Positions 3,702 through 31,418 of a stretch of DNA of 33,868 nt are shown piece after piece. Position numbers and translations under genes: made by a program. Below the pieces are notes generated by a model that ran no database searches, was not told the origin of the DNA, and saw nothing but the letters and a program-made list of their open reading frames with translations. The stretch is from positions 1 through 33,868 of the forward strand of contig CAIQNV010000094.1 of NCBI GenBank assembly GCA_903873295.1, read 5' to 3'. Numbering within the stretch: position 1 is the first letter of the stretch; each line of letters opens with the position of its first letter. The stretch comes from an uncultured Elusimicrobia bacterium (GTDB lineage: Bacteria > Elusimicrobiota > Elusimicrobia > Elusimicrobiales > UBA9959).

Positions 3702-4517
3702 ATGCACAAGGTAAACATTGACCATAGAGCGTCGCTCATCAGGGAGAACCTGGCCCGCATCGGGCGCAAGATCCTCGTCATGAGCAACAAAGGCGGCGTC
3801 GGCAAAAGCACCATCGCCGTCAATTTCGCCGGCCTTCTCGCCGCCCGCGGGCTAAAAACCGGCCTGCTCGACATAGATATCCATGGCCCCTCCGTCGCCC
3901 GCATGACCGGCCAGGAAGGCAGGGCTCACGTTTCAGACGGGAAATTCATAGACCCGCTGGAAGCGGCGCCTAACCTTAAGATCCTTTCCATGGGCTCCAT
4001 AATGAAAGCCGGCGACGCTCCGGTGATCTGGCGCGGCCCCCTCAAGCTCTCCGTCCTCAGGCAGTTCCTTTCCGACGTGAACTGGGGCGACCTCGACGCA
4101 CTGATGATCGACGCCCCGCCCGGCACCGGCGACGAGCCGCTCACCATCTGCCAGCTTATCCCCGAGATGACCGGCGCGGTGGTCGTCACCACCGGCCAGG
4201 CCGTGGCCCTCATGGATTCCCGCAAAGCCGTGAATTTTCTTAAACAGGTCGGCATCCCCGTGCTGGGCATACTTGAAAATATGACCTCTTTTTGCTGCCC
4301 GCACTGTAACAAAGAGATAAATCTTTTCAAGACCGGCGGCGGCCGCCGGGCCGCTGAGGAAATGGGGGTGCCTTTCCTCGGCAGCGTGCCTTTCGATCCG
4401 GCCATGGTGGATGCCGGCGACGACGGCAGGATCTATGCCCTGGAAAATCCCCTGGCGCCGCCTTCCGCCGCCATTAAAGCCGCCCTGGACGCCGCGCTGT
4501 CAGGAATAAAGAAATGA
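3702..4517 (+). CDS. mrp: Mrp/ApbC family P-loop ATPase, Fe-S cluster carrier
   Basis: A 271-aa cytoplasmic P-loop NTPase of the Mrp/NBP35/ApbC family, which binds and transfers [4Fe-4S] clusters. It has the deviant Walker A SNKGGVGKST (residues 28-37), DIDIHGPSVARM in switch I, MIDAPPGTGDEPL, and the C-terminal cluster-binding CxxC (Cys199-Pro-His-Cys202). The N-terminal DUF59 domain of longer Mrp proteins is absent, as in archaeal and many bacterial short forms. GAGG lies four bases before the ATG. It shares an ATGA overlap with the following secreted protein. This organism has several Fe-S proteins nearby (the DUF1667 unit and the Hyf-like complex) that would be plausible clients; that link is inference. 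Confidence 0.92.
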   Translation: MHKVNIDHRASLIRENLARIGRKILVMSNKGGVGKSTIAVNFAGLLAARGLKTGLLDIDIHGPSVARMTGQEGRAHVSDGKFIDPLEAAPNLKILSMGSIMKAGDAPVIWRGPLKLSVLRQFLSDVNWGDLDALMIDAPPGTGDEPLTICQLIPEMTGAVVVTTGQAVALMDSRKAVNFLKQVGIPVLGILENMTSFCCPHCNKEINLFKTGGGRRAAEEMGVPFLGSVPFDPAMVDAGDDGRIYALENPLAPPSAAIKAALDAALSGIKK

Positions 4518-15720: not shown

Positions 15721-17151
15721 ATGAATGCTGATGTGTTAATAGTGGGCGCGGGAGTTACAGGCGCCGCGATCGCGAGGGAGCTCTCCCGCTACAAGCTCAG
15801 GATCCTCCTCCTTGAAAAGGAAGCGGAGCCCGCTTTCGGCGTTTCCAAGTCCAACAGCGGCATCATCCACGCCGGCACCCAGAATTCCCCCGCCTCCGTA
15901 AAAGGCTGGCTTTGCGTGGAAGGCAACCGCCTGATGCGTGAGGAGATCGCCGCCGATCTGGGCCTGAACTTCGTGCAGTGCGGCCAGCTGATAGTTATTT
16001 TTGACCTTGCGGACCTCCCCGAGCTGGAAAAGATCAGGGAGGAAGGCGAAGAGCTGGGCGTGAAGGGCCTGGAGTTGAAGGACCGCGCCTGGCTGAACGC
16101 CAATGAGCCTAACCTGGGTCCCGAAGTGAAGGCCGCGCTGCTGGTGCCTTCGGCCGGTATAATAAGCCCTTACCGCTTTGTCTACGCTTTGGTGGAGAAC
16201 GCCGTAAAGAACGGCGCCGAGCTGAAGACCTCCCGGAAAGTCTCCGCCATACGGCCGCTGGAAGGCGGCGGGTTCGAGGTGGTCGCCGGCGGCGAAGTTT
16301 TTCGGACGCGCTTCCTGGTGAACGCCGCCGGGCTTTACGCGGATGAGCTCTCGGCCCTGGCCGGGGCCCCGACTTTTAAGATCACCCCGCGCAAGGGCGA
16401 GGAATACCTGCTCGATAAAAAGCGGGAGCATATCGTCAACCGCATAATTTTTCCGTTGCCGTCGAAGACCTCGAAGGGCATCCTGATAATAAAGACCTCG
16501 GACGGCAACCCCATGATAGGCCCGACCGCCCACGACACCCCGGACAAAGAAGATCTCTCCACCTCGGACGAGGGGCTCGCGGAAGTGCTGGCCGGCGCGC
16601 GCCGCATGGCGCCTTCAATTTCAAAAAGCGACATAATAGCCTATTTCTCCGGCCTGCGCCCCGTGTCGGGAAAGGATTTCATCATCCGTCACGAGGATTC
16701 CGTACCGGGCCTTATCAACGCCGCCGGCATCCAGTCTCCGGGGCTCACCTCCGCGCCGGCCATAGCCGTGATGGTGGCCGGCATCCTTAAAGAGCACGGT
16801 CTCGGCCTGGAGCCCAAAGAAGAGTTCCACCGCCTGCGGCCGCGCCCCGTCCATCTTTTTCAGGTTCCGCTCGACGAGACCCGCCGCCTGATCGGGAAGA
16901 ACCCGGCCTATGGCGACATCGTCTGCCGCTGCGAACTGGTTTCCGCTCAGGAAATACGCGAGGCTTTAAAGCGCGGGGCGCGCACGCTCGACGGCGTTAA
17001 ATTCCGCACCCGCGCGCAGGCGGGCCGCTGCCACGGCGGCTTCTGCACCACGCGCATAATGAAGATCATGCAGGAGGAGCTGGGCTTTCCGGTCACCGCG
17101 GTGACCAAGCGCGGCCCCGGTTCCGAACTGATAAAGGATGAGAGAAAATGA
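15721..17151 (+). CDS. GlpA-like FAD-dependent dehydrogenase with C-terminal BFD-type [2Fe-2S] domain
   Basis: A 476-aa flavoenzyme. Residues 4-30 form the FAD-binding Rossmann motif (VLIVGAGVTGAAIARELSR). SKSNSGIIHAGT and the C-terminal SGLRPVSGKDFII... NAAGIQSPGLTSAPAIA belong to the glycerol-3-phosphate dehydrogenase / 2-hydroxyglutarate oxidase superfamily. Residues about 398-460 are a BFD-like domain with Cys402, Cys404, Cys437 and Cys442, expected to bind [2Fe-2S]. No membrane segment is present. It starts a plus operon with a small protein, a second flavoprotein and a DUF1667 protein, the layout of anaerobic GlpA/GlpB-type units; the natural substrate (glycerol 3-phosphate or another 2-hydroxy compound) is not proved because no glycerol kinase or facilitator lies nearby. 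Confidence 0.87.
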   Translation: MNADVLIVGAGVTGAAIARELSRYKLRILLLEKEAEPAFGVSKSNSGIIHAGTQNSPASVKGWLCVEGNRLMREEIAADLGLNFVQCGQLIVIFDLADLPELEKIREEGEELGVKGLELKDRAWLNANEPNLGPEVKAALLVPSAGIISPYRFVYALVENAVKNGAELKTSRKVSAIRPLEGGGFEVVAGGEVFRTRFLVNAAGLYADELSALAGAPTFKITPRKGEEYLLDKKREHIVNRIIFPLPSKTSKGILIIKTSDGNPMIGPTAHDTPDKEDLSTSDEGLAEVLAGARRMAPSISKSDIIAYFSGLRPVSGKDFIIRHEDSVPGLINAAGIQSPGLTSAPAIAVMVAGILKEHGLGLEPKEEFHRLRPRPVHLFQVPLDETRRLIGKNPAYGDIVCRCELVSAQEIREALKRGARTLDGVKFRTRAQAGRCHGGFCTTRIMKIMQEELGFPVTAVTKRGPGSELIKDERK

Positions 17152-17381
17152 ACGTTATTTATCTGCGCCACGGCACGGCCAAAGCCCGCAAATTCATCAA
17201 TAAAAAACTGCGCGGCGGAGAGGAGGCCTCCATTTACGACATAGAGGCCGGCGACTGCTGCCTGGCCCCCTCCCCGGCGAAGCGGCGGGATTACCTGGTG
17301 ACGTTCCTCGGCGACCTTTCTCCGGAGATGCTCGCTTTCATCTACCGCAGCGGGCAGTGGACAGCGCTGAGCCGGAACTAA
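17148..17381 (+). CDS. Small basic protein of unknown function inside the GlpA/GlpB-like operon
   Basis: A 77-aa protein I do not recognise. It has no signal peptide, membrane segment or metal motif, apart from a CC pair at residues 37-38. Its start overlaps the stop of the flavoenzyme as ATGA and it is followed 26 bases later by the second flavoprotein, so it appears to be a genuine part of the operon. GATGAGAG lies before the ATG. The opening YLRHGTA recalls a phosphohistidine phosphatase (SixA) but nothing else of that fold follows. It could be a small accessory or assembly subunit. Confidence 0.6.
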   Translation: MNVIYLRHGTAKARKFINKKLRGGEEASIYDIEAGDCCLAPSPAKRRDYLVTFLGDLSPEMLAFIYRSGQWTALSRN

Positions 17382-17407
17382 GCTGTCGACGCGGCCGCGT
17401 TATATTT

Positions 17408-18385
17408 ATGAAGGAAAGAGAACTCGTTATTGTGGGCGGAGGGCCGGCGGGGATGGCGGCGGCTCTGGCCGCGCGCGCCGCCGGCGTGGAGGACGTGCTC
17501 CTGCTCGAGCGCGATCAGCACCTGGGCGGCATACTCAACCAGTGCATACACCCGGGCTTCGGCCTGCACCATTTCAAAGAGGAACTCACCGGCCCCGAAT
17601 ACGCCGACCGCTTCGTGAAGCAGGTGGAGGAGGACGGGGGCATAGAGGTCAGCCTGCGCTCGTTCGCCGTCAAGCTCACAAAAGATAAAGAGCTTTCCTA
17701 TCTGCGCCCCGGCGCCCTCGAAGAAGTTAAAGCCCGCTCCATTATCCTGGCCACCGGCTGCCGAGAGCGCACCCGCGAGATGATCCAGCTGCCGGGCACG
17801 CGGCCCGCGGGAATTTACCCCGCCGGCCTGGCGCAGAAAATGGTCAACATGGAGGGCTGGCTTCCGGGCAGGGAAGCCGTGATCGTGGGCTCCGGCGATA
17901 TAGGCCTGATAATGGCGCGGCGCATGGCGCTGGAAGGCATAGCTGTAAAAGCGGTGATAGAGATACAGAAGACCAGCCGCGGCCTGGTGCGCAACGTGGT
18001 GCAGTGCCTCGAGGATTTCGGCATTCCGCTTTATCTGCAGCACCGCGTTTCGATGATACACGGCCGCGACCGCGTTGAAAAGGTGCTCGTGGTAAAAGTG
18101 GACGAAGAGCTTAAAGACATTCCCGGCACGGGTTTTGAAATAGCCTGCGACACCGTGCTGGTTTCAGTCGGGCTCATTCCCGAGAACGAGCTGCTTGAGA
18201 TGGCCGGCGCGGAGATAGACCGCAAAACCAATACGCCGGTAGCGCCGGAGGTGAACCTTACCTCCGTGCCGGGCGTTTTCGCCTGCGGCAACGCCTGTAA
18301 AGTTTACGATCTGGTGGACTGGGTCACCCGCGACAGCGGGCTGGCCGGGAAAATGGCGGCGGAGTACCTGGGGAGCCTGAAATGA
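17408..18385 (+). CDS. FAD/NAD(P)-dependent oxidoreductase, GlpB/NoxA-like
   Basis: A 325-aa two-dinucleotide-fold flavoprotein. LVIVGGGPAGMAAALAAR (residues 7-24) binds FAD, VIVGSGDIGLIMARR is the second Rossmann motif for NAD(P), and FACGNACKVYDLVDWV is the C-terminal FAD contact. A QCIHPGFG stretch with Cys46 follows the FAD site, and ILATGCRERTREMIQLPGTRPAGI is typical of the proteins that accompany GlpA-like enzymes and DUF1667 proteins. An in-frame ATG at 17357 would overlap the previous gene and add 17 unrelated residues; I prefer 17408. No ribosome binding site is visible there. It probably passes electrons between the GlpA-like subunit and NAD(P) or a quinone; the direction is not known. 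Confidence 0.87.
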   Translation: MKERELVIVGGGPAGMAAALAARAAGVEDVLLLERDQHLGGILNQCIHPGFGLHHFKEELTGPEYADRFVKQVEEDGGIEVSLRSFAVKLTKDKELSYLRPGALEEVKARSIILATGCRERTREMIQLPGTRPAGIYPAGLAQKMVNMEGWLPGREAVIVGSGDIGLIMARRMALEGIAVKAVIEIQKTSRGLVRNVVQCLEDFGIPLYLQHRVSMIHGRDRVEKVLVVKVDEELKDIPGTGFEIACDTVLVSVGLIPENELLEMAGAEIDRKTNTPVAPEVNLTSVPGVFACGNACKVYDLVDWVTRDSGLAGKMAAEYLGSLK

Positions 18386-18744
18386 GCCGCCTGATGACCT
18401 GCATCGAATGTCCGAAGGGCTGCCGGCTCGAGCTGGAGACCGACGGCTCCAGGCTGATAAGCGTAGAGGGCAATGAATGTAAGCGCGGCATAACCTACGC
18501 CCGGCAGGAGATCGAGGCCCCCGTGCGCACGCTCACTACTTCCGTTCTGACGCGCGGGCTTGAGCTTAAAATGCTGCCGGTGCGCAGCTCGAAGCCCATC
18601 CCGAAGGGGAAACTTTTCGCGGCCATGGACGCCGTGAAGCTGATAACCGTGACCACCCCCGTAAAGGCCGGGGCCGTGATCGCTCCCGATTTTCTGGGCC
18701 TTGGCGCCGACCTGGTAGCCTGCCGGAGACTGAATAAACTTTAA
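18382..18744 (+). CDS. DUF1667 protein, probable Fe-S subunit
   Basis: A 120-aa protein of the DUF1667 family. It opens with Cys7-x2-Cys10-x3-Cys14 followed by Cys33, a ligand set that looks suited to an iron-sulfur cluster or zinc. The TTSVLTRGLELKMLPVRSSKPIPKGK core is the conserved family block. It overlaps the second flavoprotein by ATGA. Members nearly always accompany a GlpA-like dehydrogenase and a GlpB-like oxidoreductase, so it is likely the third subunit of the complex. A 66-base gap separates it from the convergent PAS gene, without a clear terminator. Confidence 0.88.
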   Translation: MSRLMTCIECPKGCRLELETDGSRLISVEGNECKRGITYARQEIEAPVRTLTTSVLTRGLELKMLPVRSSKPIPKGKLFAAMDAVKLITVTTPVKAGAVIAPDFLGLGADLVACRRLNKL

Positions 18745-19934: not shown

Positions 19935-21902
19935 ATGCTCCTGGTCCTGCTTTCTATAGTGATCCTTATTTCAAGCGCTTCGCTGGCGCTCTGCCTTGGC
20001 CGGAACGCCTCCCGCGCCCAGGACGCCGGGGCCTATGGCGCCGCCGCGGCCTCAGCGGCCGGCCTTATCCCGGCGCTTCAGGTCCTTCTAACGGGGACCG
20101 CCGAGACAATTTCCTTCCCCTGGCCCGTCCCGCTCGGCTCCTTCACTTTCACCCTCGACCCCCTTTCGGCCTTCTTCCTGGTCCCGCTCTATATCCTAAC
20201 CGGGCTCTCCGCGGTCTACGGCGTGGATTACCTTAAAAATTACGCGGGCAGGAAGCCGCTCGGCCTGGCCTGGGCGGCCTTCAATATCCTTACGGCGGCT
20301 ATGGTCCTGGTGTTTACGGCGGGAAACGCCGTGCTTTTTATGCTCGGCTGGGAGCTCATGGCGGCGGCCTCCTTCCTACTGGTGCTTTTTGAGCACGAAA
20401 AACCGCAGGTGCGCCGGGCGGCCTTTATTTATCTTACGGCCGGCGGGGCCGGCGCGCTTATGCTGCTCGCGGCCTTCAGCCTGCTCGGGGCGGGTTCCGC
20501 GGCGCTCGATTTCTCCTCCTTCCCCTCCCCCTCCCGCGGCATAGCTTCCGCGGTGTTCCTGCTGGCGCTTTGCGGCTTCGGGCTGAAGGCCGGGTTCATC
20601 CCCCTGCATGTCTGGCTGCCCGAGGCGCATCCCGCCGCGCCCAGCCAGGTCTCGGCCGTCATGAGCGGCATCATGATAAAGACCGGGATCTACGGCCTTA
20701 TCCGCGTGCTGGGCTTCATTAAACCATGGGAGGAATGGTGGGGCTGGACTCTCCTTATAATAGGCGCGGTTTCCTGTCTGCTGGGGGCGCTCTTCGCTCT
20801 GGCGCAGCATGAGCTCAAAAGGGTTCTGGCTTATTCAAGCATAGAGAACATAGGAATAATCCTCCTGGCTTTAGGGCTGGGCATGGCGGGCGCGGCCTGC
20901 GGCGCCGACGCGCTGGCCGGGCTGGCTTTCGGCGGGGCGCTGCTGCACGTCCTGAACCACGCGCTTTTCAAGGGCCTGCTGTTCATGGGGGCCGGCTCGG
21001 TGCTGCACGGAGCGGGCACGGCCGAGCTTGAGGCGCTCGGCGGGCTTGCGAAGCGTATGCCCCGCACAGCGCCTCTTTTCCTGGCGGGTTCGGCGGCAGC
21101 CTGCGCCCTGCCGCCGCTGAACGGTTTCGCCGGTGAGTTCCTCGTCTACCTCGGGGCCTTCCGCTCCCTGAACTCGGCGGGGTCAACGGCTATAGCCGGG
21201 GTAGTTTCGGGCCTGGCGCTGGCCTCCGCCGGGGCGCTGGCCGCTGCGGCGTTCACCCGCGCCGGCGGCGCCGCTTTTCTCGGCGAGCCCCGCACCGAGC
21301 GTGCCGCCAAAGCGCGGGAGGCGGGCCCGCTGATGCTCTTCTCTATGCGCGCGCTGGTCCTGCTCTGCCTTTTATGCGGCCTGGCGGCCCCCCTGCTGCT
21401 CGCTCCGCTGGGCCGGGCCGTCGCCTCGGGTTTCGGACTTTCCTTCTCCGCCGCCGCCGCGGGGGCCGCTTCCGTCCCTCTCCTTTATGTTTCAGCCGGG
21501 GGGCTTCTGCTCCTGGCCCTGATCGCCCTGGCGGCGGCCAGGCGGAGCGCTTTTCTCGGCGTAAAAATGCCCGCGGCAGGCCCGACCTGGGACTGCGGCT
21601 ACGCCGCCCCGTCCGCGCGGATGCAGTACGGAGCCTCCTCCTTCTCCCAGCCGCTCACGGATTTCTTCCAGCCCATACTGCGCAAGCTGGGCCAATACCC
21701 GGTGATCTCGGAATATTTCCCGGGCCGGGCGTCTTTCTCGAGCGAAGCGCAGGCTGTTTTTTTTAACGCGGTTTACCTCCCGGCGGCGGTGCGCATAAGG
21801 AACCTGGCTTTCAGGTTCAGCTGGCTGCAGCACGGGAGACTGCAGCTTTACATAATGTATATAGTCGTCACTCTTCTGGGGCTTCTGCTATGGAAATTAT
21901 AA
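19935..21902 (+). CDS. HyfB-like antiporter-type membrane subunit (NuoL/M/N family)
   Basis: A 655-aa inner-membrane protein with about 16 hydrophobic segments. The proton-channel core is intact: GWELMAAASFLLVLFE with the conserved glutamate, PLHVWLPEAHPAAPSQVSAVMSGIMIKTGIYGL with its key lysine, and LAYSSIENIGIILLALG. The C-terminal extension after about residue 540 with the CGY motif (TWDCGYAAPSARMQYGASSF) is typical of HyfB/HycC-type subunits rather than NuoL. It would pump H+ or Na+ when the peripheral arm transfers electrons. It is the first of six linked plus genes. No clear ribosome binding site precedes the ATG; it overlaps the next gene by 13 bases. Confidence 0.9.
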   Translation: MLLVLLSIVILISSASLALCLGRNASRAQDAGAYGAAAASAAGLIPALQVLLTGTAETISFPWPVPLGSFTFTLDPLSAFFLVPLYILTGLSAVYGVDYLKNYAGRKPLGLAWAAFNILTAAMVLVFTAGNAVLFMLGWELMAAASFLLVLFEHEKPQVRRAAFIYLTAGGAGALMLLAAFSLLGAGSAALDFSSFPSPSRGIASAVFLLALCGFGLKAGFIPLHVWLPEAHPAAPSQVSAVMSGIMIKTGIYGLIRVLGFIKPWEEWWGWTLLIIGAVSCLLGALFALAQHELKRVLAYSSIENIGIILLALGLGMAGAACGADALAGLAFGGALLHVLNHALFKGLLFMGAGSVLHGAGTAELEALGGLAKRMPRTAPLFLAGSAAACALPPLNGFAGEFLVYLGAFRSLNSAGSTAIAGVVSGLALASAGALAAAAFTRAGGAAFLGEPRTERAAKAREAGPLMLFSMRALVLLCLLCGLAAPLLLAPLGRAVASGFGLSFSAAAAGAASVPLLYVSAGGLLLLALIALAAARRSAFLGVKMPAAGPTWDCGYAAPSARMQYGASSFSQPLTDFFQPILRKLGQYPVISEYFPGRASFSSEAQAVFFNAVYLPAAVRIRNLAFRFSWLQHGRLQLYIMYIVVTLLGLLLWKL

Positions 21903-22807
21903 AGCCCCTCCTCCAGTGCCTGGCGGCGCTCCTGCTTTCCCCGCTGCTGGCGGGAGTGATAAACCGCGTAAAAGCTTTTTTCTCCGGCCGCCGGGGCCAG
22001 CCGCTGCTGCAGCTTTATTTAGAGCTTTATAAACTTTCCCGGAAGACCCCCGTTTACAGCCGCACCACCACCTGGGTTTTCAAGGCCGGGCCTGTTATCG
22101 GCTTAAGCGCGCTGCTGGCGGCGCTGGCCGTTCTTCCCTTTGCCGGCCGGCCTTCCTTTCTGACCTTCGAAGGAGATTTTATTTTTCTGCTCTATCTGCT
22201 CGGGCTTGCCCGCTTCGTCACCGTGCTGGCGGCGCTGGACACGGGCTCGGCCTTCGAAGGGATGGGCGCCAGCCGCGAGATGCAGTTCGCCGTTTTCGCC
22301 GAGCCGGCTTTTTTTCTGGGCCTGGCCGCGCTGGCCCGCGTCACCGGGCAGGGCTCGCTGGCTGGGATGTTCGGCGCCCTTACCGGGGAGAGCTGGCGCA
22401 CCGCGGCGCCGGTGCTCGCGCTGCTGACCGCCTCTTTCTTTATAGTCCTTCTGGCGGAAAATTCCCGCGTGCCGGCCGACGACCCCAACACCCACCTCGA
22501 GCTGACGATGATACACGAGGCGATGGCGCTGGACCACAGCGGGCCGGAGTTGGCGTATATCCTCTACGGGGCGGCGCTGAAGCTCTGGCTTTTCGCCTCG
22601 CTTATAGCCTGCATGGTGCTGCCGCGGCACAGCGGTTCCTGGGTTTTGGACTCCGCCCTGTTCGGCCTGGCGCTGCTCGGTATGGCGGCGGCGGTGGGCG
22701 TGGTGGAATCGATCATGGCCAGGCTGCGGCTTACCAAGGTCCCGTATCTGCTTATTACGGCTTTCGCTTTTTCGTCGCTGGCGCTTATATTTCAATTGGG
22801 GAGGTGA
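21890..22807 (+). CDS. HyfC/NuoH-like membrane subunit
   Basis: A 305-aa inner-membrane protein with about eight hydrophobic segments, of the complex I subunit 1 / HycD-HyfC family, which joins the membrane arm to the electron-transfer arm. Visible signatures are GVINRVKAFFSGRRGQPLLQLYLELYKLSRK near the N-terminus, LDTGSAFEGMGASREMQFAVFAEPAFFL, and the acidic loop ENSRVPADDPNTHLELTMIHEAMALDHSGPELA, where the carboxylates thought to relay protons or contact quinone in complex I are present. It overlaps the HyfB-like gene by 13 bases. A 71-base gap with an imperfect inverted repeat follows before the HyfE-like gene. Confidence 0.92.
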   Translation: MEIIKPLLQCLAALLLSPLLAGVINRVKAFFSGRRGQPLLQLYLELYKLSRKTPVYSRTTTWVFKAGPVIGLSALLAALAVLPFAGRPSFLTFEGDFIFLLYLLGLARFVTVLAALDTGSAFEGMGASREMQFAVFAEPAFFLGLAALARVTGQGSLAGMFGALTGESWRTAAPVLALLTASFFIVLLAENSRVPADDPNTHLELTMIHEAMALDHSGPELAYILYGAALKLWLFASLIACMVLPRHSGSWVLDSALFGLALLGMAAAVGVVESIMARLRLTKVPYLLITAFAFSSLALIFQLGR

Positions 22808-22878
22808 ATTTAAACACGAAGTTCACAAAGCATAGAACGGAGAAAGAAAGACGATATAAACTTTGTGGTTAATTTAAA
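22807..22878. repeat. Imperfect inverted repeat flanked by AATTTAAA inside the Hyf/Ehr-like operon
   Basis: AATTTAAA occurs at 22807-22814 and again at 22871-22878. Between them, CACGAAGTTCACAAAG (22815-22830) is mirrored by ACTTTGTGG (22860-22868), so CACRAAGTT-type arms face each other. The 71-base spacer interrupts an operon whose other junctions overlap, and the following HyfE-like gene has no ribosome binding site, so the repeat was probably inserted here. It is extragenic and too short to encode anything. Confidence 0.55.
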
Positions 22879-23544
22879 ATGCATACTTTCGCCGAACTGA
22901 TCATAGTTTTCGTGATACTGCTGGACCTGGCGCTGGCGGTGACGGGCTCGCTTTCCTCCTGCATAAGGCTGGTGGCCCTGCAGGGCGTGGTGGCCGGGCT
23001 GCTGCCGCTGCTGGCCGGCTCCGGCGCGCCGCACGCGCGGGCCGTGGTTTTCGCGCTGGTCATCGTCACCCTCAAGGGCGCGGTTTTCCCCAGGCTGCTT
23101 ATGCGGGCGCGGGACAAAAGCGGCGCCCGCAGGGATGTCGAGCCGCTTATCAGCTACCCGGCCTCCATCCTGCTCTGCCTCGGGGCCTTCATCGCCTCTT
23201 CATGGCTGGGCTCCCGCCTGCCGCTGCCGCAGGCGGGCGTGGCCTGGATAGTGCCGGCCTCGCTGGCCACTATTTTCACGGGCTTCCTGCTCATCACCAC
23301 GCGCAGCAAAGCCATCACCCAGGTGCTGGGCTATCTGGTAATTGAAAACGGCATCTATATCTTCGGCCTCGCGCTGTTCGTTGAACAGCCGCTGATGGTG
23401 GAGCTGGCCATACTGCTCGACGTGTTCGTGGCGGTTTTTGTGATGGGCATAGCCATCTTCCATATCAGCCGGGAATTCGACCATATAGACACGGCGGAGC
23501 TTTCCGAGCTGAACGACTGGCGCCGCGGGGAGTACGGCAAATGA
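22879..23544 (+). CDS. HyfE-like (NuoK-related) membrane subunit
   Basis: A 221-aa inner-membrane protein with about seven hydrophobic segments. Residues about 130-205, with YLVIENGIYIFGLALFVEQPLMVELAILLDVFVAVFVMG, are a NuoK-like module with the buried glutamate. The N-terminal part (LDLALAVTGSLSSCIRLVALQGVVAGLLPLL) matches hydrogenase-4 component E. The ATG has no ribosome binding site, as AATTTAAA directly precedes it; the repeat in the gap probably separated the gene from its original signal. It overlaps the HyfF-like gene by ATGA. Confidence 0.87.
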   Translation: MHTFAELIIVFVILLDLALAVTGSLSSCIRLVALQGVVAGLLPLLAGSGAPHARAVVFALVIVTLKGAVFPRLLMRARDKSGARRDVEPLISYPASILLCLGAFIASSWLGSRLPLPQAGVAWIVPASLATIFTGFLLITTRSKAITQVLGYLVIENGIYIFGLALFVEQPLMVELAILLDVFVAVFVMGIAIFHISREFDHIDTAELSELNDWRRGEYGK

Positions 23545-25064
23545 TCGCAGCCCTGATGCTCCTGCCGCTGGCCGCCGGCATACTGGCCTTCATTATAAGG
23601 AACGATAAGGCCCGCCGCGCCTTGCTGCTGTGGACGGCGAAGGGGCATTTCCTGCTTACCGCGCTTATGGTCTATCTTCAGGCCGCCTATGGGATAGTTT
23701 TCGATCTCCATGCGGGCTTTATCCCGGCCTTGTATCCGCGGGTCTCCGGCGCCGTCTGGTTCGCTTATGACGCGCTGGGCGTGCTCTTCCTCGGGATTAC
23801 CTCGCTGCTCTTCCTGGGCGCCTCTCACTACGCGGTAACCTATCTGGCCGCCGAGAAGCGCGACCCCGGCGAGGATGCGGACGACGGTTTTATTTTCAAC
23901 AACGCGCCCGAGGCGGTTTTTACCGGTTGCCTGCTGCTGTTCCTGGCGGCTATGACGGCGGTCACCGCCAGCCGCCACATGGGCCTGCTCTGGGCCTCGG
24001 TGGAGGCCACCACCCTGCTCAGCGCGCCGCTTATCTATTTCCACAGGCACAAGCGCTCGCTGGAGGCTACCTGGAAATACCTGCTCATCTGCTCGGTCGG
24101 CATCGCGCTCGCCCTGATGGGGAACCTGTTCCTCGGCGCCGCCGGCCTTAAGAGCGGCGCGGGGCTGGACCTCGCCGGCCTGCTTTCAAAAGCCGGTGCG
24201 CTGGATAAACCTTTGTTAAAGGCGGCCTTCCTGTTCCTGTTCGTAGGCTACGGCACCAAGATGGGACTTTCCCCCTTCCATACCTGGCTGCCCGACGCGC
24301 ACAGCGAGGCCCCCGCCGTGGTCTCCGCCCTGCTTTCCGGGGCGCTCTTGAACTGCGCTTTCCTCGGCATTCTGCGTGTTAACTCCGTCTGCGCTTCGGC
24401 CGGCCTCGCGGCTTTCACCGGCGGCATACTTATTCTTTTCGGGCTATTCTCAATTCTCACTGCGGCGCTCTTCATGCTCGGACAGCGGGATTACAAGCGC
24501 CTGCTCGCCTATTCCAGCATCGAGCACATGGGCATACTGGCGCTGGGCATAGGGCTGGGCGGCGGCGCGGTCTTTGGCGCCATGCTGGGCGCGCTCAGCC
24601 ATTCGCTCGCCAAGGCGGGGTTGTTCTTTACGTCGGGCGTAGTGCTGGCCGCCGAAAAAACAAAGCGCATAGCCGACGTGCGCGGCCTTTGGCGCCGCGC
24701 GCCGCGCACCGCCGCGCTCTGGCTGGCCGGCTTCTTCCTTATAACCGGCACGCCCCCCTCCGGGATTTTCCTGGCCAAGTTTATAATTCTCCGTGAGGCC
24801 GTGGCGCTTAAACATTACTGGCTGGCCGGCGCTTACCTGGGTTTACTGGCCATCCTCTTCGCCGGTATGGCTTCCGTTTTCATTTCCATGACCTTCGGCG
24901 AACACGAGGCAAAACCGGGCGAGAAGCCTTTTGCCGAACCGTCCGGCATGCTGGGTCCGGCAGCGGCCTTCTTCGCCTGCGTTATACTTGCCGGAGTATT
25001 TATCCCCGGCTGGCTGAACGACCTGCTCGCGGCCGCGGCGCGGGATATAGGCGGCAAACTATGA
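23541..25064 (+). CDS. HyfF-like antiporter-type membrane subunit
   Basis: A 507-aa inner-membrane protein with about 14 hydrophobic segments, the second antiporter-like subunit of the complex. GLLWASVEATTLLSAPLIYF carries the first conserved glutamate, and SPFHTWLPDAHSEAPAVVSALLSGALLNCAFLGILR is the HyfF form of the channel motif, with asparagine where HyfB has lysine. LAYSSIEHMGILALGIGLG and SLAKAGLFFTSG follow. The C-terminus lacks the long lateral helix of NuoL. It overlaps both neighbours by ATGA, so its stoichiometry is tied to them. With HyfB this gives two candidate ion channels; no HyfD gene is present. Confidence 0.92.
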   Translation: MIAALMLLPLAAGILAFIIRNDKARRALLLWTAKGHFLLTALMVYLQAAYGIVFDLHAGFIPALYPRVSGAVWFAYDALGVLFLGITSLLFLGASHYAVTYLAAEKRDPGEDADDGFIFNNAPEAVFTGCLLLFLAAMTAVTASRHMGLLWASVEATTLLSAPLIYFHRHKRSLEATWKYLLICSVGIALALMGNLFLGAAGLKSGAGLDLAGLLSKAGALDKPLLKAAFLFLFVGYGTKMGLSPFHTWLPDAHSEAPAVVSALLSGALLNCAFLGILRVNSVCASAGLAAFTGGILILFGLFSILTAALFMLGQRDYKRLLAYSSIEHMGILALGIGLGGGAVFGAMLGALSHSLAKAGLFFTSGVVLAAEKTKRIADVRGLWRRAPRTAALWLAGFFLITGTPPSGIFLAKFIILREAVALKHYWLAGAYLGLLAILFAGMASVFISMTFGEHEAKPGEKPFAEPSGMLGPAAAFFACVILAGVFIPGWLNDLLAAAARDIGGKL

Positions 25065-26512
25065 AAGTGGAACATCTCTCGGGCTTCGACTTCGGCGCCG
25101 CCGAGCTGGATCCCTCGATCTTCTTCGAGACCGCGGCCTCCCGCCTGGCCTCGGGCGGCAGGGCGCTGGCCTATTTCGCCCTGCCCGAAGGAGAGGCGCA
25201 CCGCCTGGTGATGGCGGTGGGCTTCGACAGGGAGGGCCGCATAGAGGTTTACTCGACACAGGCTTACGGGCCTTTCAGGGCGCTGACGCCCTCTTTTCCC
25301 CAACTGCATCTTTTCGAGCGGGAGATCTTCGAGCAGGCCGGGCTGAAGCCCGAGGGCCATCCCTGGCTGAAGCCCATCCGCTTCAATACCCCGGGCGCGG
25401 TGCCGGGCGTGGCCGATTATTTCACCGTGCACGGCAGCCAGGTTCACGAGGTGGCCGTCGGGCCGGTGCACGCCGGAGTTATCGAACCCGGGCATTTCCG
25501 CTTCCAGTGCCACGGCGAGCGCGTCTTCCACCTAGAGATAATGCTGGGCTACCAGCACAGGGGCCTGGAGAAGAAGTTCATAGGCGGGCCGGACGGGCGC
25601 TCGCTGCATTACGCTGAAACCCTGGCCGGCGATACGACCATCGGCCACGGCTGGGCTTATTGCGGCGCCGTGGAAGCCCTCAGCGGCGTGAACGTGCCGC
25701 CCCGGGCGCAGATCCTGCGCGGAATAATGCTTGAGCTGGAGCGGCTGGCCAACCATACCGGCGACCTTGGAGCGCTGGCCGGCGACGTGGCCTATCTGCC
25801 CGCAGCTTCTTTCTGCGGCCGCCTGCGCGGGGATTTCCTGAATATGACCGCGCTTGTCTGCGGCAGCCGCTTCGGCCGGAATATGCTCAGGCCCGGTGGA
25901 GTGAATTTCGACCTGGACGCCGCTCTTATACACGAGCTTAAGCTGCGGCTGGAAAACACTTTCCGCGACGTGCAAAGCGCCGTCTCGCTGCTCTGGGAGA
26001 CCGGCTCGGTGGCCGACAGGTTCGAGGACACCGGCGTGGTATCAAAAGAGGCGGCCGAAGGTCTCGGGCTGGTCGGCCCGGTCGCGCGGGCCTCGGGAGT
26101 GGGGCTTGATACGCGGCGCAATTTCTCAAGCGGGCCTTACGAGGGCTTTACGCTGGGCGTCTCGGGCAGCGGGGACGTCTATTCGCGGGCTTATGTCCGG
26201 TGGCTTGAGATACAGAAATCCGCAGAGCTTATCGCCGGCTGGCTGGACGCCCTGCCCGCGGGCCCCGTCGAGGCGGAATGCGGCTGCCTTAAGGCGGACA
26301 GCGCCGCGGTCTCGCTTGTGGAGGGTTGGCGCGGCCAGATCTGTCACTTCGCGCTTACCGGGCCCGGCGGGAAGTTCAGACATTACAAAATCGTGGATCC
26401 ATCCTTCCATAACTGGCAGGGCCTGGCGCTGGCGCTCAGGAACGGCGAGATCTCAGATTTTCCGCTCTGCAACAAGAGCTTCAATCTTTCCTACTGCGGG
26501 CGTGATTTATGA
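25061..26512 (+). CDS. NuoC-NuoD fusion, hydrogenase-large-subunit-like protein without the [NiFe] cysteines
   Basis: A 483-aa protein. Residues about 15-115 are a NuoC/HyfG N-terminal domain (FPQLHLFEREIFEQAGLKPEGHPWLKP), and the rest is the NuoD/hydrogenase large-subunit fold (HGERVFHLEIMLGYQHRGLEKKF, VNVPPRAQILRGIMLELERLANHTGDLGAL). In group 4 [NiFe] hydrogenases two CxxC motifs bind the metal. Here the first position reads AGDTTIGHGWAYCG (residues 189-202) and the C-terminus ends ISDFPLCNKSFNLSYCGRDL, with only Cys470 and Cys479 and no CxxC. It therefore cannot hold a standard [NiFe] site. It ends at Leu483 without the C-terminal processing extension. Assigned to Ehr-like complexes; its redox partner is unknown. 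Confidence 0.88.
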   Translation: MKVEHLSGFDFGAAELDPSIFFETAASRLASGGRALAYFALPEGEAHRLVMAVGFDREGRIEVYSTQAYGPFRALTPSFPQLHLFEREIFEQAGLKPEGHPWLKPIRFNTPGAVPGVADYFTVHGSQVHEVAVGPVHAGVIEPGHFRFQCHGERVFHLEIMLGYQHRGLEKKFIGGPDGRSLHYAETLAGDTTIGHGWAYCGAVEALSGVNVPPRAQILRGIMLELERLANHTGDLGALAGDVAYLPAASFCGRLRGDFLNMTALVCGSRFGRNMLRPGGVNFDLDAALIHELKLRLENTFRDVQSAVSLLWETGSVADRFEDTGVVSKEAAEGLGLVGPVARASGVGLDTRRNFSSGPYEGFTLGVSGSGDVYSRAYVRWLEIQKSAELIAGWLDALPAGPVEAECGCLKADSAAVSLVEGWRGQICHFALTGPGGKFRHYKIVDPSFHNWQGLALALRNGEISDFPLCNKSFNLSYCGRDL

Positions 26513-27246
26513 TCAAGGCTTTAATGGCGCGCTGGAAGCAGGGCTATCGGACTATGGAATTCCCGTCGGCCGGCCTGATGCTGCCGCCGCGCGGGCTGGG
26601 CCTGCCCAAGCTGAAGCCGGGCCGGCTGGAGAAGGCGGCGGCGGCCTGTCCCTATGGGGCGCTCACCGCCGGTGAAAAGCCCGGGTTGGACATGGGCCGC
26701 TGTATTTTTTGTGGAGCCTGCGCCAATGCGGCGCCTGAGGCGGTGGAATTTACGCGGGAGTACAAGCTCTGCGCGTCCGGGCGCGGCGCCCTGGTTATTA
26801 CGGATGAGGATTTCAGGCGGGCGGAAAGTCTGGGGGCCGGGCTGCGCAGGCTCTTCGGCCGCTCTTTCAAGCTGCGGCAGGTGAGCGCCGGCGGCTGCGC
26901 CGCCTGCGAGGCGGACTGCAATGTTCTTCAGACCATCGGCTGGGATCTCGGCCGTTTCGGCGTGCAGTTCGCGGCCTCGCCCCGCCACGCGGACGGGCTC
27001 CTGGTGACGGGTCCGGTTACAAAGAATATGGAGCTCGCTCTGCGCAAGACTTACGCGGCTATGTCCTCTCCCAAAGTCGTTATCGCCTGCGGCGCCTGCG
27101 CTATCTCCGGCGGTCCCTACGCGGGCCACGAGGAATGCGCCGGCATCCCGCCGGAGATCCCGGTGGACCTCTATATCCCCGGCTGCCCCCCGCATCCCCT
27201 GACCATCCTGGACGGCATCCTGCGCCTTATCGGCAGGGTTGAATGA
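26509..27246 (+). CDS. NuoB/HyfI-like Fe-S subunit fused to a one-cluster ferredoxin domain
   Basis: A 245-aa cytoplasmic electron-transfer subunit. Residues about 25-90 are a reduced HyfH/ferredoxin domain with Cys47-Pro and Cys65-x2-Cys68-x2-Cys71. Together these can bind one [4Fe-4S] cluster; the ligands of a second cluster are replaced (ANAAPEA). Residues 120-245 are NuoB/HyfI-like, with Cys130, Cys133, Cys197 (in ACGACAISGGPY) and Cys226 (PGCPPHP) to bind the cluster closest to the membrane arm. It overlaps the large subunit by ATGA and ends the operon, 14 bases from a convergent kinase gene. Electrons probably enter at the ferredoxin domain; the donor is unknown. Confidence 0.9.
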   Translation: MIKALMARWKQGYRTMEFPSAGLMLPPRGLGLPKLKPGRLEKAAAACPYGALTAGEKPGLDMGRCIFCGACANAAPEAVEFTREYKLCASGRGALVITDEDFRRAESLGAGLRRLFGRSFKLRQVSAGGCAACEADCNVLQTIGWDLGRFGVQFAASPRHADGLLVTGPVTKNMELALRKTYAAMSSPKVVIACGACAISGGPYAGHEECAGIPPEIPVDLYIPGCPPHPLTILDGILRLIGRVE

Positions 27247-27260
27247 AGGATTTAAGTCCG

Positions 27261-28748
27261 CTACAACGGCGCTTGCTTGGGCGAGTTCACTGTAAAGTAA
27301 AAGGCGGCGCCTTTGTCCTCGGCGGCTTCAGCCCAGATCCTGCCGCCGTGGCGCTCGACGATGCGGCGCACCGTGCTCAGGCCCACTCCGGTGCCGGGGT
27401 ATTCGTCCGGGGAGTGAAGCCGCTGGAAAGGCTGAAACAGCTTGTCGGAGTATTTCATGTCGAAGCCTTTGCCGTTGTCCTTTACGAAATAGACCGTCTC
27501 CCCGCCCCTCTCCGCCGCGCCGAACTCTACCACGGCGTTCTCGGTTTTCCGCGTGAATTTCCAGGCGTTCTCCAGCAAATTGCTTATTACCTCTCCCAGA
27601 AGTCCGGCGTCGCCGCTGATATATAAGCTTTTCGCTGCTTCGAATTGCACGGCCCTGCCGGGTTCGTCCTCCAGCAGGCGCCTGACGGCCTCCCGGGCCA
27701 GCTCGCTTAAATCCACTTTCTCGAATTTTATCTCCTGACGCATTATGCGGGAAAGTTTAAGCAGATCGTCCACCACTGTCGTCATCTGTATACAGCCCTT
27801 GCGTATCCTGGCCAGGTAGTCTTTGGCATTTGCATTTATCGTCCCGGCGCATTCCAGTTCAAGCAGAGCGCTGAACCCGTCTATGCGCCGTATGGGGGCG
27901 CGCAGGTCGTGCGAAGCCGAGTAATTAAAAGCCTCAAGCTCCTCGTTAGCCAGCTTCAGTTCCTCTGTCCTGGCCGCTACTTTGACTTCCAGCGTGTTAT
28001 GCGCCTGCCTCAGCGCCTCCTCGGCGAAGTCGCGTTCGCGAATGCGGGCTTCCAGGCCCGAAAGCATGGCGTCAAACCCGGCGGCCAGCTCGCCTATCTC
28101 GTCCCCGCGGTCCAGACCGGCGCGCATGGAATAGTCTTTCGCCTCCGCCACCTCCCGGGCCAGCCCCGCCAGTTTAAGGATAGGAACCGAGACCAGGCGC
28201 TGCGCCAGCGTGGAAATAAAAAGGGAAAGAAAAGTTATGCAGACAGCCAATACCCCAAGTATCTTTATCTTAGTGGAGATCCGGCGTGAAAGCTCGGCGG
28301 TGGAGGCGTTTATGGAGAGAGTCCCGTAGTTCAAGCCTTTATATACCATCGGCTCGAAAATGTCCAGCGCCCCGCCGTTCTGCGGCCGCGGAGCGTGGGC
28401 GGCGGAAATGTCCGGCGGAACCTCTGTCGGATACGCGCCGGCGCGGGAATAATAGGCGAACAGTTTGCCGTTCTTGCCGTATATCGCTGAATGGTTTATT
28501 TCAGCCATCAGCGAAAGTTTTTCCAGGGTCTGCCGCGCCTCGTCCGGGTAGTTGAAAGCCAGGTCAGCCACGCACTGCTCCGAGTACATCTTTGCGATAA
28601 GCGTGATGTTTTTGACAAGTTCCCGGCTGAGGACTCTTTTGTCCAGCGCCGTTATCGCGGCGAACCCGGCAAGCACGGAGGTCACGGCTATGCCCGCCAT
28701 CAGCAGGGTGAGCTTGGCGGAGATGGGGATATCTCTGAAGCGTTTCAC
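27261..28748 (-). CDS. Membrane sensor histidine kinase with CHASE8-like periplasmic domain
   Basis: A 495-aa kinase. Two membrane segments (about 12-34 and 160-182) bracket a periplasmic CHASE8-like domain (SEQCVADLAFNYPDEARQTLEKLSLMAEINHSAIYGKNGKLFAYY). HAMP spans about 183-236, a coiled coil about 240-272, and the HisKA domain has His280 in NYSASHDLRAP. The ATP-binding domain shows NLLENAWKFT, DNGKGFDM, and GTGVGLSTVRRIVERHGG. Start is GTG at 28748, overlapping the YfiR-like stop (GTGA). In the YfiN system the same CHASE8-HAMP input drives a cyclase and is controlled by periplasmic YfiR; here it is joined to a kinase. The RR at 31437-31907 is a plausible phosphate receiver. Confidence 0.9.
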   Translation of the reverse strand: MKRFRDIPISAKLTLLMAGIAVTSVLAGFAAITALDKRVLSRELVKNITLIAKMYSEQCVADLAFNYPDEARQTLEKLSLMAEINHSAIYGKNGKLFAYYSRAGAYPTEVPPDISAAHAPRPQNGGALDIFEPMVYKGLNYGTLSINASTAELSRRISTKIKILGVLAVCITFLSLFISTLAQRLVSVPILKLAGLAREVAEAKDYSMRAGLDRGDEIGELAAGFDAMLSGLEARIRERDFAEEALRQAHNTLEVKVAARTEELKLANEELEAFNYSASHDLRAPIRRIDGFSALLELECAGTINANAKDYLARIRKGCIQMTTVVDDLLKLSRIMRQEIKFEKVDLSELAREAVRRLLEDEPGRAVQFEAAKSLYISGDAGLLGEVISNLLENAWKFTRKTENAVVEFGAAERGGETVYFVKDNGKGFDMKYSDKLFQPFQRLHSPDEYPGTGVGLSTVRRIVERHGGRIWAEAAEDKGAAFYFTVNSPKQAPL

Positions 28749-29308
28749 GGGCCTTCCTTGCCGTACACGGCCGCGGCTAGGGGCATCAGTTTTGAACTGA
28801 AGATAAGGCCGCTCCTGCGGGAGGCTTCCAGGTTCAGCTCGAAACGGAGGCGTCCTTCTTTTCTGTATACTGCTACATGGGCGCCTTTCTCGGCGAATCT
28901 CTTCCCGTCGCCTATAATAAGCACCGCCCTGCCGGCGGCGGAAGCAAGAATTTCATCCAGACGTCGGTGTTCGCTGTTAGCGATGAAAAGCAGATGGCAT
29001 GCTCCCAGCGGGTCTCCGGGTTCGACATGGTGCAGCACGACAGCGCGCCCTTTTATGGTCCTGGTCCGCGCCAGGTCTTCGAGGTAATGCCCGAACGGGT
29101 CCGTGCCGGCTATCGTTATCACGAAAGGAGCCTCCGGCCCGCTGAAAGCTCCGGCCGGCCATTCCACGAACTCCGCTATCCTTTCCAAGAATTCCGCCTT
29201 AACGCGGTATTCGGCGAAATCGACGGCAGGAACGGGCGACAGTAAAGTCGTAAGAAGCAGGGCACAGAGCGCGGCAGCCCTTAAAAGCTTGCGAATAATA
29301 AAACTCAA
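28745..29308 (-). CDS. YfiR family (DUF4154) periplasmic protein
   Basis: A 187-aa secreted protein. Residues 1-29 are a signal peptide. The mature protein has the family opening YRVKAEFLERIAEFVEWP, then FVITIAGTDPFGHYLEDLARTRTIKGRAVVLHH, CHLLFIANSE and VLIIGDGKRFAEKGAHVAVYRKEGRLRFELNLEASRRSGLIFSSKLM. Known YfiR restrains a membrane cyclase from the periplasmic side and releases it on envelope stress. There is no ATG; the only start compatible with the signal peptide is TTG at 29308, with GGAAG upstream. It lies between a TonB receptor gene and the kinase, with a GTGA overlap to the kinase. Confidence 0.88.
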   Translation of the reverse strand: MSFIIRKLLRAAALCALLLTTLLSPVPAVDFAEYRVKAEFLERIAEFVEWPAGAFSGPEAPFVITIAGTDPFGHYLEDLARTRTIKGRAVVLHHVEPGDPLGACHLLFIANSEHRRLDEILASAAGRAVLIIGDGKRFAEKGAHVAVYRKEGRLRFELNLEASRRSGLIFSSKLMPLAAAVYGKEGP

Positions 29309-29357
29309 AGTTCACTTCCGTTCCGGCGTTTCAGCCGGGCTTGCAAAATTCTCGGGC

Positions 29358-31418
29358 TCAAAACCGCCACGAGGCGTTCACGAGCACGCGCCGGTCATTA
29401 AGAGCGTTGCGGTTCTCATAAGCGCTCCGCTGGTCTTCGGTATAGGGAGTTGAACCGAGGCCGAAATAACTATTGCTGCCGTCGGATACAGGATATTCAA
29501 TATGTCTCTTGTCAAGCAGGTTCAGGACCGTCAGTCCTAACTCTATTGCCCCGCCGCTGTAATGGACCGAGTAGGTCAGTTTTGTGTCCAGCGTCGTATA
29601 GCTTCCGATGTCCATAAAGCGGGTGATTCCGTCTTTGCAGGGGATCCCGAACTGCGCTTTCCTGGCGCCGACATAGTGCGCGACCAGACTGCCTGCCAGC
29701 CCGGAGTCCGTCTCGTAAGTGAACCCGAGGTTCGATTTTATCTGCGGCACGCTCAATTGCTGTCCGTCTATAGCCGCGAGGTAGTTCAAATCCTGGTACG
29801 AGACATTGCCGAAGGTCTGCAAGGCATTGATGGGCGCCCAGCGCAGCTCTGTTTCGGCGCCGTTGATATTCAAGCCCTGCAGATTCTCGTAGCGGAGCGG
29901 ATTCGTGTAGCCCAGATACGGCGCAATCTGTTTTTGCAGGAGGATAAGATCCCGGACCTTGTAACGGAACAGGCCGAACCGCAGTGAAAGGCGTTCATGG
30001 AGCAGGCCCTGGTAAGACAGTTCCTGATAGTTGATCCGCTCCGGCAGGCGCCGGCCGCCCGGATATTCCGCCTGGCCCTCTACGATGGTAGGGGAGCTAA
30101 CGGATAAAGCGTAGGTTTCCAGGACGGACGCCTTACGAAAAGCGGAGCCGGTGCCGTAACGCAGCGAGTGGCCCTCGCCCAGGGAAAGGACAGCGGCGCC
30201 GCGCGGAGAGAACATGCCGTACATGTCTTTGTGCTTGTCATAGCGCAGCCCTCCGGTGAGGGAGAGGTCCTCCCCCGGCCATACTTCAAGCTGTCCGTAC
30301 CCGGCGTAAAGGCTGTCGTTCAAGCGCGGGTGGGCAAGATACGCCGATTCCACATGGGCCGATTCACCGGTCAAGCCGGCGGTCAGGCGCAAGCTCTCGC
30401 CCAAGCGGCTCCAATAACGGGCTTCGCCGTTCTGCCTTCGCGTCAGATACGGTTGGAGTCCTTCGTCGCGTTTATAGGAGGATTCAAGCTGCGCCTCAAG
30501 GCCGGCGCGGTCCCCGAAATCGCGCTCGTAAATCAGTTGGGCATAGCCGTTGCGGGTCGGCGTAGGGTTATTGGCGGCCTTCCCTGGTGTGCCTGAGAGG
30601 TCCGGATTACTAAGCACACCGGAGACGATCCCTCCCCGCAGCGACAGCCGGCGGTCCCGCCCGGCCGGCAGATCAGCCCGGAGGGTCACCCTGGAGAGCT
30701 CCGACCAGTCCTTGAGCTTCGCGGCCCCTCCGATGGTGGAAGGGGGAATGGGCTGCACGGTTTCTCCGACGTCGCCGGGTTCGCGGTTACCCCAGCCCTC
30801 AGTCTTGTCTGTCGCAGCCGTCAGCGCGAAGGCGAGCTTGCCCAGCGACCCGCCGTAGGACGCGGAGTAACCCTGGTCCTTCTTATTCCCGGCCTGCGCT
30901 CCCACCCGCACCCCCCGGCGCCGGGACGCCGGCTTGGTGAAGATCTGGACGATCCCTGAAAACGCGTTAGCGCCGTAAAGGGCAGAGTTAGGGGAGAGAC
31001 TGACCTCCACCCGCTCAATATCTTCAAGGAGGACCGGCAGCTCTTTCCAGCGCACCGCGCCCGAGAAGTCATCATTGACGCGGTGGCCGTCCAGCAGAAC
31101 CAGCATTTTTGCGTTCTCTAAGGTGTTGAGCCCGCGCGCGCCGACCTCTATCTCGGTGTCCCAGGCCGTCATTATGTCCAGTCCGGGGACATTGCGCAGC
31201 AGATCAACTACGCTTGCCGCGCCGAGAGTACGGATGTCCCGCTGCGTCAGCACGAAAAGCGTGGCAGGGGCCGCTGTCAGCGGCTGCGGGAACCTGGAAG
31301 CTGTCATGACCTCCAGGTTCAAAAGCTGCTCAAGGCTGAGGTCCTTGAGCTCCTGCGCGTGCAACGCGCCGCCTGCGGCGGCCGCGAGGACGGCAAATAC
31401 AATAATGGTTTTCTTCAT
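29358..31418 (-). CDS. TonB-dependent outer-membrane receptor
   Basis: A 686-aa outer-membrane beta-barrel. Residues 1-21 are a signal peptide (ending ALHA). Residues about 25-150 form the plug domain (LEQLLNLEVMTASRFPQPLTAAPATLFVLTQRDIRTLGAASVVDLLRNVPGLDIM, IEVGARGLN, MLVLLDGHRVND, SPNSALYGANAFSGIVQIFT). The barrel follows and ends in VLVNASWRF, the C-terminal aromatic needed for insertion. No N-terminal signalling extension is present, so contact with the YfiR-like protein would be through the periplasm. The neighbouring YfiR, kinase and response-regulator genes are on the same strand and closely spaced. The ligand cannot be inferred. A G-rich ribosome binding site precedes the ATG. Confidence 0.92.
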   Translation of the reverse strand: MKKTIIVFAVLAAAAGGALHAQELKDLSLEQLLNLEVMTASRFPQPLTAAPATLFVLTQRDIRTLGAASVVDLLRNVPGLDIMTAWDTEIEVGARGLNTLENAKMLVLLDGHRVNDDFSGAVRWKELPVLLEDIERVEVSLSPNSALYGANAFSGIVQIFTKPASRRRGVRVGAQAGNKKDQGYSASYGGSLGKLAFALTAATDKTEGWGNREPGDVGETVQPIPPSTIGGAAKLKDWSELSRVTLRADLPAGRDRRLSLRGGIVSGVLSNPDLSGTPGKAANNPTPTRNGYAQLIYERDFGDRAGLEAQLESSYKRDEGLQPYLTRRQNGEARYWSRLGESLRLTAGLTGESAHVESAYLAHPRLNDSLYAGYGQLEVWPGEDLSLTGGLRYDKHKDMYGMFSPRGAAVLSLGEGHSLRYGTGSAFRKASVLETYALSVSSPTIVEGQAEYPGGRRLPERINYQELSYQGLLHERLSLRFGLFRYKVRDLILLQKQIAPYLGYTNPLRYENLQGLNINGAETELRWAPINALQTFGNVSYQDLNYLAAIDGQQLSVPQIKSNLGFTYETDSGLAGSLVAHYVGARKAQFGIPCKDGITRFMDIGSYTTLDTKLTYSVHYSGGAIELGLTVLNLLDKRHIEYPVSDGSNSYFGLGSTPYTEDQRSAYENRNALNDRRVLVNASWRF

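Follow-up and report, generated by a model that had tools for sequence, protein, structure and literature searches.

The window, that is, the whole 33,868-nucleotide contig CAIQNV010000094.1 of an uncultured Elusimicrobia bacterium, carries six overlapping or closely spaced genes on the plus strand (19935-27246; open reading frame coordinates as in an earlier note on this DNA) that very likely encode an energy-converting hydrogenase-related (Ehr) complex, although our trees contain no published Ehr sequences. The operon encodes a working complex held by strong purifying selection. In 24 gene comparisons of the window with four relatives, the ratio of nonsynonymous to synonymous substitution rates (dN/dS) was 0.055-0.161 across the six genes and, therefore, the operon is not decaying. 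With moderate confidence, we read the complex as a redox-driven ion pump, in which electrons would pass from a low-potential carrier through iron-sulfur clusters to a remodelled pocket in the large subunit EhrL, and the acceptor there would not be H+. Labels with L, G, and C below denote loci, genomes, and contigs, respectively.

To describe the family, we used as relative loci the best 80 of 455 matches to the window protein (81 loci with the window) and read their gene content by tblastn. In a tree of 42 rows, for which the program warned of long branches, all 31 Ehr rows were on one side of a branch with support of 100/100, and the [NiFe] group 4 hydrogenases, Nuo, and MbsL were on the other side. 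In a tree of 32 rows, the 22 rows without CxxC grouped with support of 98/97, and their sister was the pair L123 and L124. These trees, which hold no named published Ehr or group 4f sequence, show one clade apart from HycE, MbhL, and Nuo, in line with the description of the complex as Hyf/Ehr-like in the earlier note.

Across the six proteins, the Pfam domains are Proton_antipo_M (twice), NADHdh, Oxidored_q2 (below the cut-off), Complex1_49kDa, and Oxidored_q6 (Table 1); all NCBIfam scores were under the curated cut-offs, and the HyfE match was weak. The genes E/F, F/L, and L/S overlap by 4 bases and B/C by 13 bases, while C/E are separated by 71 bases, and the gene order is the same in the relatives. 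The Lys and Glu residues of the antiporter-like subunits and the acidic residues of HyfC and HyfE are near-invariant. Specifically, E140, K218, K249, H338, H342, and E401 of the HyfB-like protein and E155, K179, K240, and K358 of the HyfF-like protein are conserved in 72-74 of 74 family rows, and E156 and D181 of the HyfE-like protein are conserved in 71/71 rows (E175 in 70/71). H202 and H209 of the HyfC-like protein are present in 71/71 rows but not in E. coli HyfC, HycD, or NuoH. These data confirm the two antiporter-like subunits, HyfC, and HyfE with their pump parts kept, as previously claimed. L061 and L092 each have a tandem pair of ehr operons, and a second hyfB-like gene is present in L069, L074, L081, L085, L104, L105, L109, and L110.

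The top match of EhrL in the PDB was HycE of formate hydrogenlyase (7z0s_E; 4e-40), which was also the top Foldseek match (template modeling [TM] score 0.86 by query) of an AlphaFold2 model with a mean predicted local distance difference test (pLDDT) score of 83 and a predicted TM score of 0.88. No NiFeSe_Hases Pfam match to EhrL was found at E 0.001; in NCBIfam, NuoD models matched EhrL, and the matches of a nickel hydrogenase model (4.7e-6; 25.8 bits versus a cut-off of 600) and of frhA (1.3e-4) were very weak. The cysteines of EhrL are at positions 150, 201, 252, 267, 407, 409, 428, 470, and 479. We aligned the window and the 80 Ehr rows with E. coli HycE, HyfG, and NuoCD and with Elusimicrobiota group-4 hydrogenases. 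In comparison with HycE, HyfG, and the group-4 hydrogenases, the Ni/Fe ligand columns are occupied by Ala189, Thr192, Ser477, and Gly480 in EhrL, and Cys201, Cys470, and Cys479 are all on non-ligand columns. In a wider set of 109 EhrL rows (86 distinct sequences), of which L031 ends ahead of the second site, no row had a CxxC at either site. Thus, the claim that both Ni/Fe CxxC motifs were lost from the large subunit withstood the alignment. A single first cysteine is kept in two distinct rows, i.e., L054 (duplicate L014) and the divergent L032; the motifs read CGDASIGH in L054 and CGDTAIAH in L032/L128. A second subtype without CxxC is present in the same-genus genome G004 (L126, 2824-4580, and L127, 3903-5758; DGEAAFAH and NKSFNLSYPGNDL).

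New here is an invariant signature in the old site, i.e., D191, W423, C470, S477, and G480 are present in 81/81 rows, together with the replacement of the complex I quinone ligands. The His and Tyr with which NuoD holds quinone correspond to Ile141 and Gly190 in EhrL (81/81 rows each). R424 is likewise invariant and C479 is present in 80/81 rows; at the first site, G190 is found in 81/81 rows, T192 in 77/81, and at position 189, 73 rows have A, 7 have S, and 1 has C; G422 varies in 3/81 rows. E142, which is common to hydrogenases, is retained. In rows without CxxC, the two residues that the N-terminal cysteines once flanked include an acidic one (D; E in L126/L127), and EGWRG or ESWRG takes the place of EAPRG/ESPRG; neither feature is found in L123/L124 or HycE. 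The two changes together point to a former [NiFe] pocket that was rebuilt rather than left empty.

L123 (9038-10645, G196) and L124 (1801-3411, G178), which were drawn from a sample of G070's phylum, encode large subunits with all four Ni/Fe cysteines (RICGVC and CYSC) in six-gene ehr-like operons with the same gene order as in the window. Based on this sister pair, the ancestor of the form without CxxC likely carried the cysteines. Because the L123 and L124 proteins end at the same residue as EhrL, also without a C-terminal extension, the missing processing extension listed in the earlier note is correct for EhrL but not diagnostic of site loss. A further new observation is that these four-cysteine cousins are in genomes without HypD or HypF matches; G196 is represented by one contig of 4,406,153 bases of a genome of ~4.4 million, while G178 is in pieces and may be incomplete.

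In EhrS, the N2-type site is complete (C130, C133, and C197 in 80/80 rows; C226 in 79/80), in agreement with the claimed complete membrane-proximal cluster. The ferredoxin part needed correction: one cluster is conserved (C47, C65, C68, and C71; 80/80 rows), while all four cysteines of cluster I are missing in the window and L037-L059 (24/24 rows; the window's clade). By cysteine count, 48 of 56 EhrS rows outside this clade have all four cysteines of this other cluster, and six of the remaining eight rows are from Omnitrophota. The small subunit of L126, which is cut by the contig end, seemingly misses the ferredoxin motif.

The search for conserved neighbors in related genomes gave a clear result, chiefly outside the window's clade, where a gene for an HTH_17-PTS_EIIA_2 protein (HTH-EIIA) of the phosphotransferase system (PTS) type is linked to ehr operons, which is also new here. 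This gene accompanies the operon in 38 of the 42 testable loci and is missing at L066, L079, L080, and L086; in 35 of the 38 loci, it is directly upstream with a gap of 17-79 bases. The other 15 of the 57 outside-clade loci were untestable, 11 having no hyfB (of these, L108 has the gene) and 4 having too little DNA. In L085, the gene is flanked by two hyfB genes and, in L128, by hyfB and hyfC. Using cut-offs that were set after the lists were seen (EIIA, >180 bits in the first sample and >150 bits in the second; L, >560 bits) and genomes that are non-independent, we found a strong match in 13 of the 15 genomes that encode a close large subunit versus 2 of 134 others in G070's phylum (149 genomes; Fisher p 6e-15), and in 19 of 27 versus 2 of 167 in G073's phylum (194 genomes; p 4e-18), or in 19 of 54 versus 2 of 140 if any large-subunit match was counted (p 3e-10). 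Five genomes of these counts, G070, G102, G103, G073, and G074, also contributed to the 80 loci. In G070's phylum, 11 of 16 large-subunit copies share contig and strand with an HTH-EIIA match (the match in G103 is cut by the contig end); in G073's phylum, 17 of 19 HTH-EIIA matches are on the same contig and strand as the large subunit. The likely phospho-His was present in 41/41 sequences, and HPr was found in 41 of 43 genomes tested. No match was found in 20 of 21 other genus members searched, the exception being G012, which has a divergent ehr operon with the gene inside. In E. coli, unphosphorylated PtsN binds and inhibits a K+/H+ antiporter, as described in part of PMC11808508; a link between Ehr and a PTS protein was not found in a search limited to open-access PMC papers. 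HTH-EIIA probably controls the operon or the complex in many relatives. The window's clade has neither the HTH-EIIA gene nor the four cluster-I cysteines, yet has the low dN/dS given above, a combination also reported here for the first time.

A redox-driven Ehr pump would work as follows. Reduced ferredoxin or a similar low-potential carrier would donate electrons to EhrS, from where they would pass the [4Fe-4S] clusters to the pocket where Ni-Fe formerly sat. There, a small acceptor other than H+ would be reduced beside D191, R424, and W423, and the energy released would move H+ or Na+ through the membrane arm (HyfC, HyfE, HyfF, and HyfB) in the manner of complex I and Mbh. HTH-EIIA would control the operon or the complex in many relatives, and the window's clade would operate without HTH-EIIA and one ferredoxin cluster. 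The Ehr-like composition, the missing [NiFe] ligands, the N2 cluster, and the pump residues bear out the earlier note in part; the redox-coupled ion pumping that it proposed is our inference as well. The following observations weigh against this scheme. The six-gene operon contains no electron-donor gene. The loss of one EhrS ferredoxin cluster in the window's clade would also be consistent with a smaller demand for electrons. In the EhrL model, pLDDT is <50 at residues 107-124, 133-144, and 471-483, the last being the C-terminal segment, so that the model does not resolve the pocket. HTH-EIIA was found neither at the window locus nor in the window genome and therefore says little about control here. 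Finally, in G073's phylum, no strong HTH-EIIA match is present in 8 of the 27 genomes whose large-subunit match is close or in any of the 27 whose match is weaker. A wider proposal, to which we assign a low probability, is that Ehr complexes generally are ion pumps driven by redox chemistry and controlled by the PTS. Their Ni-Fe(CN)2CO site would have become a pocket, with D/E191 and W423 as its marks, that accepts an organic or other small molecule as electron acceptor. This change would have started ahead of the loss of the cysteines; as the genomes of L123/L124 have no HypD or HypF matches, the four cysteines there may hold a cofactor other than the normal [NiFe] site.

Among the alternatives, a redox-gated ion transporter, in which clusters and pocket would gate the antiporter-like subunits in response to redox state or a ligand, with no catalytic turnover, is unlikely. 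It would accommodate the linked HTH-EIIA, the precedent of PtsN and the K+/H+ antiporter (PMC11808508, in the part cited above), and the clade-wide loss of a ferredoxin cluster with the remainder still constrained; however, N2-type ligands and a pocket that are near-invariant over several phyla fit catalysis at least equally. Quite unlikely is a short complex I, i.e., a ferredoxin:quinone oxidoreductase with quinone entry at the HyfC/EhrL interface. The replaced NuoD ligands (Ile141 and Gly190) speak against a complex I-type quinone site and to that extent against quinone, an acceptor candidate in the earlier note, while the homology to NuoB, NuoCD, and NuoH and two NuoD-like matches elsewhere in the window genome (C45 and C87) are in its favor. 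So is a prenyltransferase of the UbiA family, which was matched in 47 of 50 genomes, the window's among them, although the family also includes non-quinone enzymes; 3 of the 50 have no match, a soft absence as the completeness of most of these genomes is not told, and a passage of PMC6349859 describes Ehr genomes without identified quinone pathways.

Archaeal Mbs functions in the reduction of sulfur compounds and is a related machine without the full Ni/Fe cysteine set. Reduction of sulfur compounds or thiols by Ehr, with the highly conserved C470 and C479 as a working pair, is nevertheless improbable: MbsL has one cysteine per pair while Ehr rows have none, apart from the two distinct rows with a single first cysteine; C479 gives way to Ala, Ser, or Pro in L061b, L092b, and L125-L127, and L092b also has Val in place of C470; and MbsL groups with Nuo, away from Ehr, albeit on a long branch. 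Mbs-like chemistry was rejected based on the differing cysteine pattern. A decaying or cryptic hydrogenase is scarcely credible even with the likely cysteine-bearing ancestry, given the dN/dS values, the identical replacement residues in nearly all rows, and the lack of a HypD match in 11 of 50 Ehr genomes, many possibly incomplete; we rejected a hydrogenase on the replaced ligand columns and dN/dS. The redox-driven pump remains our preferred reading.

Regarding the genome context, none of the window genes scanned is a hyp gene, as the earlier note said of maturation genes, but the genome has HypD and HypF on C129, which is explained by the three other large subunits with intact cysteines that it encodes (C121, C143, and C101). 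HypD was found in 39 of the 50 Ehr genomes; its absences are as soft as those of UbiA. Pfam and NCBIfam profiles detected no NADH-oxidizing NuoE/F/G domains, either in the operon or in those flanking genes that were scanned. The glycerol-3-phosphate oxidase-like genes (15721-18744) were considered as electron donor and set aside. Within the window's clade, 16 of 24 loci have genes of this type next to ehr, versus 0 of 57 outside it, some loci being too short to show them, and an opposite-strand PAS gene separates them from ehr in the window. The gene after the operon (27261-28748) is on the opposite strand.

Table 1. Features of the window and of related loci
Feature	Position	Strand	Evidence or remark
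HyfB-like antiporter-like membrane subunit, 655 aa	19935..21902	+	PF00361 1.7e-52; top NCBIfam, hydrogenase 4 subunit B 8.4e-173 (below cut-off)
HyfC/NuoH-like membrane subunit, 305 aa	21890..22807	+	PF00146 6.6e-30
HyfE-like membrane subunit, 221 aa	22879..23544	+	hydrogenase 4 membrane subunit 1.8e-15 (below cut-off); Oxidored_q2 4.5e-5 (below cut-off)
HyfF-like antiporter-like membrane subunit, 507 aa	23541..25064	+	PF00361 8.5e-52
EhrL large subunit, NuoC-NuoD fusion type, 483 aa, without [NiFe] ligands	25061..26512	+	PF00346 6.9e-33
First remodelled ligand region, EhrL residues 189-198 (AGDTTIGHGW)	25625..25654	+	HycE VCGICGFAH aligns to LAGDTTIGH
Second remodelled ligand region (C-terminus), EhrL residues 470-483 (CNKSFNLSYCGRDL)	26468..26509	+	HycE SLDPCYSCTDR aligns to SFNLSYCGRDL
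EhrS, ferredoxin domain (one [4Fe-4S] motif left) fused to NuoB/HyfI-like domain, 245 aa	26509..27246	+	PF01058 4.6e-25
HTH_17-PTS_EIIA_2 gene heading or inside ehr operons	L060-L116, e.g., L060 3284-3967		outside the window's clade
Glycerol-3-phosphate oxidase-like FAD protein, FAD/NAD oxidoreductase, DUF1667 protein	15721-18744
CHASE8-HAMP histidine kinase, YfiR-like DUF4154 protein, TonB receptor, side by side	27261-31418	-
NUBPL/Mrp-type iron-sulfur P-loop NTPase	3702-4517

Ehr complexes are present in several phyla, and the parts of PMC6349859, PMC10284858, PMC7304191, and PMC10432482 used here name no proven substrate. The invariant pocket singles out residues for testing, and the HTH-EIIA partner offers a way to learn under which conditions and for what purpose an Ehr complex is used. 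The four-cysteine cousins without hyp matches represent a step between hydrogenases and machines without CxxC in the complex I superfamily.

Ehr complexes without CxxC are already described in those parts of the same four papers, where their function is called unknown or redox-coupled charge transfer is proposed. In the relevant passages, PMC10284858 places Ehr near group 4f, and PMC6688271 mentions pH homeostasis for an ehrABCDLS complex, citing Coppi 2005 and Marreiros 2013 for Ehr/EhrABCDLS, whereas a passage of PMC4704411 counts an ehrABCDLS cluster among hydrogenases likely reducing ferredoxin. The window operon resembles Ehr (EhrABCDLS) in its six genes of the same kinds (letters per passages of PMC6688271 and PMC4704411), its antiporter-like subunits, and a group-4-type large subunit without Ni/Fe cysteines; it differs from the Ehr relatives compared in having one rather than two ferredoxin clusters in EhrS and no HTH-EIIA. 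With E. coli Hyf/Hyc, it shares the order HyfB, C, E, F, and HycE as the best sequence and fold match; in contrast to Hyf/Hyc, it has no counterparts of HyfA, D, and J, no CxxC pairs, no protease gene, and no formate dehydrogenase, and the HyfH and HyfI parts are fused in one gene. The four Cys ligands in two CxxC that mark group 4 [NiFe] hydrogenases are absent from EhrL, while hyp genes are present in the genome. Complex I (NuoB/CD/H/L/M/N) has the same core subunits, N2-type cluster ligands, and pump Lys/Glu residues; unlike complex I, the window operon has no NADH module and no quinone His/Tyr of NuoD. Like Mbs of Pyrococcus furiosus (6u8y), Ehr has a group-4-like large subunit without the full Ni/Fe cysteine set, but MbsL (6u8y) keeps one Cys per pair and groups with Nuo, while EhrL does neither.

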